Under the pieces are notes generated by a model. That model was not told where the DNA came from. It saw nothing but the letters and a program-made list of their open reading frames with translations, and did no database searches. A program made the translations under genes and the position numbers. From Gimibacter soli (GTDB lineage: Bacteria; Pseudomonadota; Alphaproteobacteria; Sphingomonadales; Kordiimonadaceae), in the NCBI RefSeq assembly GCF_028463845.1, contig NZ_CP116805.1, forward strand, positions 372,001 through 436,000: a stretch of DNA of 64,000 bases. The letters are read 5' to 3'. Positions 42,478 to 45,512 of the stretch are shown here, piece by piece. How positions within the stretch are numbered: the stretch's first letter is position 1; the number at the start of each line of letters is the position of its first letter.

Positions 42478-44085
42478 ATGGCCCTCACCCCACGGCTCGA
42501 TCTAAGGCAAAGCCAGCAGCTGGTGATGACACCCCAGCTGCAGCAGGCGATCAAGCTGTTGCAGCTGTCGAACCTCGAGCTTGGCGAGTTTGTCGAGCAG
42601 GAGGTGGAGCGCAACCCGATCCTCGAGATCGGCGAGCCGGGCGGCGACGTGCCGGGCGAGATGGAAACCGGCGAAGGCGGCGGCACCGCGAGCGACGAGG
42701 GCCTGCGCGACTTTAGCGACGATACCTTCCGCGACGGGCGCGATGATTACGGCGACGCGCAGGAAGGCGGCCTGATTGCTACCGACCGCGGGCTGGAAAC
42801 CGGGATCGACAATACGGCGGGCTCTGATTCCGCGCTCGATGCCGATTACGGCGACAATGTTTTCAACGGCGACGCGGTTAGCGACCGGGTTTCGGCGGCG
42901 AGCGACGCGCCTTCCGGCCTTTCCTATGACGGCGCCGGTGCAGTGCGCGGCGCGGGCGGGGTCGGCGATGACCGGGGCCTTGACCAGACGCTTGAGGCCG
43001 GTGAATCCCTCCACGACTTTCTGACCCACCAGATGCTGGTGGCGGTGCATGCACCCGCCGACCGGATGCTGGCTGCCCACCTGATCGATCTCGTCAATGA
43101 GGCCGGCTATATCGATGCCGCCGAGGTGACCGACGCCGCCGAACGGCTGGACTGCGCCGAGGAAGACGTGGACCGGGTGCTTGGCATCCTGCAGACGTTC
43201 GAGCCCGTCGGCGTTTTTGCCCGGACGCTTGGTGAATGCCTGGCGCTGCAACTGAAGGATCTTGATCGTTTCGACCCCTGCATGCAGGCGCTGGTGGCGC
43301 ATCTGGACCTGCTGGCGCGCGGTGATCTGGCCGCGCTCAAGCGCATCTGCGGGGTCGATCAGGAAGACCTGACCGACATGATCCAGGAAATCCGCGCGCT
43401 GAACCCCAAGCCCGGTTTTGCCTTCGGACACGAAGATGTGCAGGCCGTGGTGCCGGATATTTTCGTTTCCAAGGCCAAAACCGGCGAATGGGTGGTGGAG
43501 CTGAACAGCGATACCCTGCCCCGTGTGCTCGTCAATTCCAGCTATGTGGCCGAGCTGAGCGAAACCGCATCGGGCGAAAAGGAAGCCAAGGCCTTCATTT
43601 CAGAATGCGTGTCGAACGCCAACTGGCTCGTCAAGGCGCTCGACCAGCGCGCCCGCACCATCCTGAAGGTGGCAACCGCGCTTGTGAAAAAGCAGGATAT
43701 GTTTTTCGAATATGGCGTACGCTACCTGAAGCCGCTGACATTGAAGGACATTGCCGACGAGATCGACATGCATGAAAGCACGGTCTCGCGCGTTACCAGC
43801 AACAAATTCCTTGCCTGCCCGCGCGGCCTGTTTGAGCTCAAATATTTCTTCACCTCGTCGATTTCGGCGACAGCCGGCGGCGACAGCCATTCGGCAGAAT
43901 CGGTGAAATTCCGGATCAAGGAACTGATCGACGCCGAGGACCCGAAGAAAATCCTCTCCGACGACACGATCGTCGACATCATGAAGCGCGAAGGCGTGGA
44001 TATTGCCCGCCGTACGGTTGCCAAATACCGCGAGGCGATGAAGATTCCGTCCTCTGTCCAGCGTCGCCGCCTGAAGTCGATCTGA
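42478..44085 (+). CDS. rpoN: RNA polymerase sigma-54 factor
   Basis: The 535-residue sigma factor directs transcription from -24/-12 promoters and needs an AAA+ activator. Region I is LRQSQQLVMTPQLQQAIKLL followed by LSNLELGEFVEQEVERNPIL. An acidic region II of about 120 residues is longer than in E. coli. The core-binding domain follows, with HESTVSRVTSNKFLACPRG from the DNA-binding helix-turn-helix. The RpoN box ARRTVAKYREAMKIPSSVQRR lies at the C-terminus. The lptB-rpoN-hpf-ptsN order is the widely conserved one. A partner activator with the GAFTGA motif is encoded at 49914-51302. Confidence 0.97.
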   Translation: MALTPRLDLRQSQQLVMTPQLQQAIKLLQLSNLELGEFVEQEVERNPILEIGEPGGDVPGEMETGEGGGTASDEGLRDFSDDTFRDGRDDYGDAQEGGLIATDRGLETGIDNTAGSDSALDADYGDNVFNGDAVSDRVSAASDAPSGLSYDGAGAVRGAGGVGDDRGLDQTLEAGESLHDFLTHQMLVAVHAPADRMLAAHLIDLVNEAGYIDAAEVTDAAERLDCAEEDVDRVLGILQTFEPVGVFARTLGECLALQLKDLDRFDPCMQALVAHLDLLARGDLAALKRICGVDQEDLTDMIQEIRALNPKPGFAFGHEDVQAVVPDIFVSKAKTGEWVVELNSDTLPRVLVNSSYVAELSETASGEKEAKAFISECVSNANWLVKALDQRARTILKVATALVKKQDMFFEYGVRYLKPLTLKDIADEIDMHESTVSRVTSNKFLACPRGLFELKYFFTSSISATAGGDSHSAESVKFRIKELIDAEDPKKILSDDTIVDIMKREGVDIARRTVAKYREAMKIPSSVQRRRLKSI

Positions 44086-44200
44086 CAAAATCCGTCGATT
44101 TTGCTGAGTCGCACCGCCCGATGTCATAAATCCTTCATCAGGGCCTTCCCATACCCTTGATTTTTCAGCCACTTGCCACACGTTTAAAGAGACAGGCGAC

Positions 44201-44377
44201 ATGCAGCCAAACTTCTTGGTAGGCTTGAAGGGACAGCTGCAACGGCTGTCTGGTTGGGCCTATATGGCCCCAGAAGTAAGGAGAAAGCGGGCGGAAGACC
44301 GCCTCTGCCGGTCTTCTCGGTCCCGTGACCGACGACAAGCGGCCTCACCGGCCGTGTAGAAAGGATGATTGGCTCCT
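44201..44377 (+). other. Hairpin-rich leader upstream of hpf (possible small ORF)
   Basis: The rpoN-hpf gap of 292 bases holds five successive inverted repeats: GACAGC/GCTGTC (44232-44250), GGGCC/GGCCC (44256-44270), GAAGACCG/CGGTCTTC (44294-44316), CGGTC/GACCG (44318-44331) and CGGCC/GGCCG (44340-44354). This looks like a structured 5' leader. The same stretch contains a 52-codon open frame (44201-44359) with an Arg-rich end and no clear ribosome binding site; I do not think it is translated. Confidence 0.45.
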
Positions 44378-44962
44378 ATGGATATCAATGTAACCGGACG
44401 GAAAATGAATGTGGGCGAAGCTCTGACAACCCACGTGACGGACAGGCTTCAAGCCATTACTGAGAAATATTTCACCCGGTCGATCGATGCATCGGCAACA
44501 TTCCACAAAGAAGGGCATCTCACCCGCGCCGACATTTCGTTGCACGCCAATCAGGGTATCAATATGCAGGCCCGCGCCGAGACGGACGATCCCTACGCCG
44601 CATTCGAGCTCGCAGCCGACAAGATCGAAAAACAGTTGCGTCGTTATAAACGTCGCCTTAAGAACCACCACGCTATGACAGGCCACGAAGAAATGATGTT
44701 CGAGCCAGTCAGGAGCACCGTGCTCGCCCCGCACGCAGATGAAGAGGGCGAAGCTGTGAACGGTGCTGATCATCATCCTGTGATCATCGCAGAAGCCAAT
44801 GTGGAAATTCCGCGGGTTACAGTGAGCGATGCCGTGATGCTGATGGACTTGTCGGATTCGAACGCCTTCATGTTCAGAAACACGAAGAGCGACACGCTCG
44901 ACGTTGTGTATCGCCGCGGCGATGGCAACATCGGCTGGATCAGTCCGGGCGCGCGAGACTAA
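44378..44962 (+). CDS. hpf: Ribosome hibernation promoting factor, long form
   Basis: The 194-residue product has the S30AE/RaiA domain (about residues 1-105: MDINVTGRKMNVGEALTTHV, then a basic helix IEKQLRRYKRRLKNHH). The C-terminal dimerisation domain (about 135-190) has VSDAVMLMDLSDSNAFMFRNTKSDTLDVVYRRGDGNIGWI. Long HPF dimerises 70S ribosomes into inactive 100S particles in stationary phase. The ATG at 44378 is chosen because MDINVTG is the conserved N-terminus. AAGGA is 10-13 bases upstream, and a TTG nine bases before is the alternative. Confidence 0.95.
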   Translation: MDINVTGRKMNVGEALTTHVTDRLQAITEKYFTRSIDASATFHKEGHLTRADISLHANQGINMQARAETDDPYAAFELAADKIEKQLRRYKRRLKNHHAMTGHEEMMFEPVRSTVLAPHADEEGEAVNGADHHPVIIAEANVEIPRVTVSDAVMLMDLSDSNAFMFRNTKSDTLDVVYRRGDGNIGWISPGARD

Positions 44963-45012
44963 AGTGTCTTGCACAGGCACCCCTGACTGATCGATAATGA
45001 ACCCATTGATCC

Positions 45013-45035
45013 CCGGACCCCCTATCGGGGTCCGG
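45013..45035 (+). promoter_or_regulatory. Hairpin in the hpf-ptsN gap
   Basis: CCGGACCCC (45013-45021) and GGGGTCCGG (45027-45035) form a perfect 9-base stem with a 5-base loop, 15 bases before the ptsN ATG. No T run follows, so it is more likely an mRNA processing or translation-control hairpin than a terminator. Confidence 0.6.
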
Positions 45036-45050
45036 TCGAGAGGTAGCCTT

Positions 45051-45512
45051 ATGGAGATCGAAGATCTTCTAAACCCGGATAATGTCCTCGCGGGCTTCCG
45101 GGCATCGAGCAAGAAACAGGCGCTTCAGGCCCTTTCCCGCCATATGGCGGAGCAAGTGGGCGTGGATTGCCGCGACGCCTTTGACGGGCTGATGGAACGC
45201 GAACGCCTTGGCTCCACCGGTGTGGGGCATGGTGTGGCCATCCCGCACGCGCGGATGAAGGGCCTTGATCGCATCGTCGGCCTTTTCGCCCAGCTTGCCG
45301 AACCCATTCCGTTCGATTCGGTAGACGACCAGCCGGTCGACCTGATTTTCATGCTGCTGGTACCTGAAGAAGCCGGCGCCGACCATCTGAAGGCGCTTGC
45401 CAAGGTATCGCGCCTGCTGCGCGATGACCGTATGTGTGAAAAACTGCGCGCCACGCACAAGGCCCCGGCCCTGTTTGCAATGCTGAGCCAACCGGCCACG
45501 AACGCCGCCTGA
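45051..45512 (+). CDS. ptsN: Nitrogen-regulatory PTS enzyme IIA (PtsN)
   Basis: The 153-residue product is the phosphoacceptor at the end of the nitrogen-related PTS. The phosphorylated residue is His66 in GSTGVGHGVAIPHARMKG. The rest matches the family (GLFAQLAEPIPFDSVDDQPVDLIFMLLVPEEAGADHLKALAKVSRLLRDD). PtsN regulates potassium transport, stress responses and, in alphaproteobacteria, the stringent response. GAGAGGT before the ATG at 45051 supports the start. A terminator hairpin begins within the last codons. Confidence 0.95.
   Translation: MEIEDLLNPDNVLAGFRASSKKQALQALSRHMAEQVGVDCRDAFDGLMERERLGSTGVGHGVAIPHARMKGLDRIVGLFAQLAEPIPFDSVDDQPVDLIFMLLVPEEAGADHLKALAKVSRLLRDDRMCEKLRATHKAPALFAMLSQPATNAA

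Follow-up and report, generated by a model that had tools for sequence, protein, structure and literature searches.

What occupies the 292 nt between rpoN and the gene downstream of it in Gimibacter soli, and does it bear on how that gene is expressed? The window analysed here, a stretch of 64,000 nt from a 3.59 Mb genome held on a single contig, carries rpoN as an ORF at 42478-44085 and, directly beyond the gap, an ORF at 44378-44962 (ATG at 44378), both on the + strand. We take the latter to be hpf, encoding hibernation promoting factor (HPF), the name given in the earlier note on this DNA; the ORF that follows at 44997-45512 is presumably a PTS-like gene. The earlier note had described five consecutive inverted repeats in the gap, at a density it called unusual, and had read them either as a structured 5' UTR controlling synthesis of the hibernation factor or as a processed small RNA. 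The comparisons set out below point to the structured 5' UTR, predicted at 44231-44377 on the + strand, and make it plausible that this leader controls HPF synthesis. The setting is a general one in the family: hpf relatives were found in 56 of the 59 genomes searched, with a match in all 29 Kordiimonadaceae compared, and rpoN stands upstream of hpf at all 29 of those loci.

When a hairpin is defined as a perfect Watson-Crick stem of at least 5 pairs with a loop of 3-8 nt, five disjoint stem-loops are present on the + strand (44232-44250, 44256-44270, 44290-44303, 44317-44332 and 44340-44354), spanning 123 nt from 44232 to 44354 and ending 23 nt before the hpf ATG. Their density is as unusual as had been proposed: only one of 12,775 frames of 125 nt, taken across the 64 kb in steps of 5, holds five hairpins (the frame at 44231), 33 frames hold four, and none of 2000 dinucleotide shuffles of the leader region reaches five (mean 0.68). 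Folding energy is moderately low, with z of -1.83 for 44186-44390, -2.06 for 44086-44379 and, over 60 shuffles, -2.46 for the leader counted from 44231; the unusual feature is the density of small stems, not stability. Hairpin 1 (H1, 44231-44251) has a GCAAC loop and is, from the hairpin scan, its position after the -10 element and its covariation, the predicted 5'-terminal stem. Hairpin 2 (44256-44270, GGGCC-TATAT-GGCCC, outer-pair probabilities 0.81 and 0.93) and hairpin 3 (44290-44303, GGCGG-AAGA-CCGCC, 0.86) have support confined to the genus level, and a stem at 44294-44316 that would compete has an outer-pair probability of 0.02. Hairpin 4 (44317-44332, TCGGTC-CCGT-GACCGA) has probabilities of 0.50 and 0.95 and, like the two before it, support at genus level only, whilst hairpin 5 (44339-44355, GCGGCC-TCACC-GGCCGT, 0.99), the H4 of the family, adjoins the ribosome-binding site, where the Shine-Dalgarno sequence AAAGGA lies at 44360-44365, 12 nt ahead of the ATG.

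The sole same-genus relative among the genomes compared is Pseudokordiimonas caeni, the sister species, to which the leader is 96.1% identical, the stretch immediately before it (44152-44225) 95.9%, the remaining gap (44086-44151) 80.3%, and rpoN and hpf 93%. The gap is thus far from poorly conserved throughout, and the leader exceeds its remainder (Fisher p 0.0004); it is not significantly more conserved than the hpf coding sequence (p 0.26). Five of the six differences within the leader fall in linkers, and the sixth breaks the outer pair of hairpin 4. Beyond the genus, a nucleotide search of 59 genomes with the leader recovered its own genome, the sister species and, in two others, a 36-nt match ahead of the start codon, so few matches that nucleotide similarity alone would have missed the leaders of the wider family.

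Those leaders were reached with covariance models, the check across relatives that the earlier note had proposed. The first, R1, was built from three leaders of genus g9, a genus of Kordiimonadaceae that includes Kordiimonas laminariae and K. marina, with the window excluded. In the G. soli genome its best match is the window's leader (E 7.9e-9) and its next has an E of 0.216, with the best 109 of 232 first-look candidates scored; with E allowed up to 1 it recovers 25 of the 30 hpf loci, a number that includes the three on which it was trained. A second model, R2, was trained on 17 leaders, the window among them, and matches the window at 44226-44377 with 74.8 bits. Across the 25 R1 matches all 33 modelled pairs show two-sided changes, and across the 17 better matches 32 of 33 do, with 94.4% of cells paired and a covariation score of 0.598; shuffles score 0.229, and sliding the partner never gave more than 0.104. 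Because such alignments were made to fit the structure they are biased in its favour, and H1 was therefore retested on 15 sequences (14 distinct) aligned by plain MAFFT. There, six of seven pairs show two-sided changes, 91.8% are paired, and the score of 0.807 (shuffled, 0.381) was equalled in 0 of 500 shuffles; the pair count and pair-type measures are not unusual on that alignment (116 and 292 of 500 shuffles, respectively). When H1 arms were swapped among 22 distinct leaders, own arms formed a mean of 5.1 of 6 pairs as against 4.0, and 0 of 20000 swaps reached the own value; for H4, with the arms placed solely by the loop motif, 99 of 20000 swaps did so (9 distinct pairs). Folding z falls below -2 in 16 of 29 leaders and is near zero in four (L006, L020, L024 and L029). 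By this comparative evidence, the hpf leader is an evolutionarily conserved, covarying folded RNA.

Where that RNA begins is suggested by the promoter region. The conserved segment at 44152-44225 ends in an extended -10 element of TGnTA type, TGGTAGGCT (44217-44225, + strand), just ahead of H1; it is absent from the output of a sigma-70 scan, which requires a -35. The usual distance from a -10 to the transcription start is 6-8 nt, so the hpf RNA would begin at the base of H1, with a predicted start at about 44231-44233. Elsewhere in the family a TGnTA-type extended -10 precedes the first hairpin in 21 leaders of 29, here called short-type, and an AGTA-type variant occurs in the eight long-type leaders, the list of -10 patterns having been written after the sequences were read, which is a source of bias. 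In 19 of the 21 short-type leaders a stem of at least 6 pairs starts 4-9 nt past the -10 hexamer (shuffles, 4.1%), the same test at eleven later positions finding such a hairpin in 0-6 of the 21; none lies within 9 nt of the -10 in any of the eight long-type leaders. On this comparison the leader is probably transcribed from its own promoter inside the rpoN-hpf gap. Of the interval that the earlier note had assigned to the leader, 44186-44377, the part from about 44231 stands, whilst 44186 to about 44230 is more likely promoter. Within that upstream part, AGACAGGCG and TGCAGC (44190-44207) are complementary to parts of H1 (44232-44251), such that RNA reading through from rpoN could fold unlike the hpf-only transcript.

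Several further patterns were noticed in the promoters and 5' ends of related loci. In the long-type leaders L012, L015, L018 and L022, a 5' CAGGGG can pair, by eye, with a downstream sequence that precedes the final two hairpins; the resulting helix would seem to close the leader and, here too, to tuck its 5' end away. Exact TTGA[CT]-N4-[AG]TCAA boxes, presumably FNR/Anr-like, lie upstream of the hpf -10 hexamer at 13 of 29 family loci (L005-L013, L016-L018 and L022), always by exactly 28 or 41 nt, and suggest oxygen-linked control of hpf in Kordiimonas; the hpf promoter of the window has none. Many class-level loci (L190-L218, by eye) carry before hpf a promoter-like pattern, TTGAC...TATGGTCC, unlike Kordiimonadaceae.

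The family leaders share a common plan: they open with a 5' hairpin whose loop is GCAAN, continue through middle stems to a final hairpin close to AAAGGA, and reach the ATG after a spacer of 12 nt. The window has the promoter element, the GCAAN-loop H1 (4-9 nt past the -10, the position by which the family element is recognised), the last hairpin, AAAGGA and the 12-nt spacer. At least 5 of 6 pairs form around the H1 loop in 24 of 29 leaders, and the loop itself is GCAAN in 23, with that of L026 set by hand as ATCAA; a GCAAN loop also closes the third stem in 6 of 17 leaders (L004, L005, L007, L010, L011 and L025), the window's third stem being without one. AAAGGA occurs in 27 leaders: 23 have it exactly 12 nt from the ATG and two have it 11 nt away, while in the remaining pair, L020 and L029, the sole copy lies far upstream. 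Leader length and the middle stems differ between genera, and R2 threads the middle of the window unlike its three local hairpins. Taken across these alignments, the exact five-hairpin layout is genus-specific, and hairpins 1 and 5 are clearly common to the family.

A second layer of possible structure lies in the loops. In Kordiimonas the last loop complements that of H2 (GGGGA/UCCCC, GGAGG/CCUCC, CGGG/CCCG), and over 14 leaders only 24 of 20000 permutations are as good, the H1-H2 control giving 17100 of 20000; this aligned-loop test used 14 of the 17 leaders, L010, L011 and L019 being dropped for an aligned H4 stretch longer than 12 nt. A test of loop complementarity on folded apical loops gave 32 of 20000 (13 leaders). 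H3-H4 complementarity is also beyond permutation (98 of 20000), so the loop partner is not unique and may differ between genera. In the window, the loop TCACC has no partner of at least 4 pairs in the aligned H2 loop or the folded apical loops, the best being 3 contiguous; GTGA at 44325-44328 would give it 4 pairs, but lies partly within the stem of hairpin 4.

How far the element extends was assessed by searching outwards from the family. R2 matches 23 of the 29 family genomes, all at the hpf leader by coordinates, and six are without a match; 17 of the 23 supplied training sequences, and the other six match with E from 2e-12 to 0.05. A model of promoter plus H1 matches 16 of 29 genomes at E up to 0.0022, all at hpf (15 of the 16 are training sequences), with a best match elsewhere of 0.022. 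No second copy was found in family genomes by R2 or promoter-H1 among the best-ranked candidates scored; in the G. soli genome these were the best 53 of 796 for R2 (9 of 714 in the class-wide search) and the best 150 of 825 for promoter-H1, and, as only part of the candidates were scored per genome, weak second copies could be missed. Outside the family, R2 matched four of 30 genomes weakly (E 0.0055-0.09), and across 337 genomes of the class it gave G. soli itself and three matches (E 0.001-0.007); in neither set, G. soli itself apart, did the stretch fetched around a match contain hpf. R2 picks out six of 80 named hpf loci, each a family member that had served in training; the other two family loci (L041 and L043) and the 72 non-family loci have no match at E up to 1. 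At these loci rpoN lies within the fetched stretch at 11 of the 80 (8 family loci, L044, L045 and L066), and 15 of 18 inspected upstream regions show another gene, which we take to be dnaQ-like, separated from hpf by a short gap. A further 49 hpf stretches (20 hand-picked from 27 order genomes with an hpf match and the 29 best of 99 class genomes) yielded two weak R2 matches: L214 with an E of 0.3, and L217 with one of 0.021 that is confined to the positions of hairpin 1. A GCAAN hairpin of at least 5 pairs occurs once in L198; tblastn in these stretches did not find hpf in L183 or L187, nor rpoN in L185, L191 or L218. By these searches the leader is a family-level element, with no convincing match outside Kordiimonadaceae at the sensitivity used.

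Nor does it match a family in Rfam. Rfam 15 at gathering threshold returned only tRNA in the whole window; at relaxed settings there was one match in 44000-44450 (E 1.1) and one, on the other strand (E 0.72), among the 12 of 30 hpf loci taken into the scan. When 8 kb of the window was searched against plasmids, the matches were all short, and those in the five of eleven records listed fall in ABC-transporter genes or unannotated sequence. Among the papers listed by literature searches, none describes this leader in its title or abstract opening. As far as Rfam and those titles and abstract openings show, then, the leader is ordinary in kind, a structured 5' UTR, and new as a family.

A functional parallel is the cyanobacterial lrtA leader, which is reported to stabilise its transcript and hamper translation (PMC4956104). 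As that report presents it, the lrtA leader is likewise long, of predicted structure, placed before an HPF-type gene and served by a class of promoter with only a -10 hexamer, but is 312 nt in length, cyanobacterial and regulated by light and dark (PMC4956104); the likeness is one of function, with no homology claimed. By analogy, the hpf leader most likely acts as the lrtA leader does, protecting the 5' end and tuning translation. Stem-loops at the 5' terminus, as in ompA, stabilise mRNA, and the window's stem is similarly predicted to lie where the mRNA begins; the hpf leader differs in adding a conserved GCAAN loop and further family-specific stems. The raiA-associated motifs of Firmicutes and Actinobacteria, which are represented in Rfam, are also structured RNAs adjoining an HPF-family gene, but the hpf leader has no such Rfam match. 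Finally, the hibernation genes of E. coli are reported to be under post-transcriptional control by CsrA through their leaders, hpf fusions being described there as unaffected (PMC10746276), a comparable leader-based control of hibernation factors, whereas the 29 Kordiimonadaceae genomes gave no CsrA match.

The reading we favour, held tentatively and at a little short of even confidence, is that of a folded 5' leader on an hpf-only transcript with its own extended -10 promoter, serving both to protect the 5' end and to tune translation. Transcription from the extended -10 within the gap would yield an hpf-only RNA that begins at the base of H1, so that its 5' end would be tucked into a stem. 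That 5'-terminal stem would keep decay of the RppH/RNase E type off the hpf mRNA, which would stay translatable at growth arrest. RppH of B. subtilis is reported to need at least two unpaired 5' nucleotides (PMC3997798), and an RNase E/G-family protein is encoded in the G. soli genome. The remaining leader would set the rate of translation, in Kordiimonas folded back via loop-loop contact; an effect on translation is suggested by where the last hairpin stands, next to the ribosome-binding site, and by the complementary loops of Kordiimonas. Classical sequestration of the Shine-Dalgarno sequence is not supported, because its GGA has no consistent partner across the leaders of different species. 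The start site, the protection and the translational effect are what we infer from this arrangement.

Of the alternatives, the one that survives best, though we consider it unlikely, is a translational switch: the GCAAN loops of the leader would be bound by a small ligand or by a protein, possibly HPF itself or one of the ribosomal proteins, and binding would gate ribosome loading at AAAGGA. The retention of GCAAN while stem sequence changes, its recurrence in the third stem of those six leaders, the position of the last hairpin against the Shine-Dalgarno sequence and the Kordiimonas loop pairing would all suit such a switch; but no second copy was found among the candidates scored, which is unusual for a metabolite sensor, the single gene context offers no clue to a ligand, the Shine-Dalgarno sequence is without a consistent partner, there is no Rfam match, and the window's own third stem does not carry the loop. 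CsrA, the obvious GGA-binding protein, is an unlikely regulator, with no match in any of the 29 family genomes by a search whose control was positive in 3 of 14 named genomes. A passive structure, whose stems merely prevent inhibitory pairing or space the promoter from the ribosome-binding site without regulation, is improbable: length and middle stems do vary between genera, as does Shine-Dalgarno accessibility among family leaders, and conservation is not significantly above that of the hpf coding sequence, yet the GCAAN loop is conserved, its position is fixed, the loop-loop complementarity exceeds permutation and the leader is better conserved than the remaining gap. It is a long shot that the leader is an autoregulatory hibernation sensor RNA, its GCAAN hairpin and loop-loop fold being bound by HPF or by some signal derived from the ribosome; were this true, the level of free hibernation factor would govern how well its mRNA is translated or how long that mRNA lasts, in a clade in which no CsrA was found. 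The earlier note's second proposal, a processed or independent small RNA, and with it a transcription attenuator, is very unlikely: the leader is a compact folded unit of about 147 nt that probably has its own promoter, but none of six terminator-like sites lies in 44186-44377 on the + strand, and the last hairpin adjoins the ribosome-binding site of hpf. An intrinsic terminator or attenuator (a GC stem followed by a T run) was rejected, there being none in the leader. Scarcely any credence attaches to a small protein encoded by the 52-codon ATG ORF at 44201-44359, which is open across the hairpins (52 aa) but was rejected because a one-base deletion in the sister species shifts its frame, and whose start lies upstream of the predicted transcript start, with the longest gap ORFs at other family loci dissimilar by eye.

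For Kordiimonadaceae, the protected leader we favour would bear on a general difficulty of growth arrest. Hibernation factors must be made just as translation stops, and for most bacteria there is, to our knowledge, no settled account of what spares their mRNAs from that shutdown; a longer-lived mRNA would suit a protein required at that moment. The small covarying leader of hpf offers a concrete element with which to approach it, in which stems and loops can be altered one by one, and it gives Kordiimonadaceae, an alphaproteobacterial family that has been little studied, a covarying RNA element with no Rfam match.
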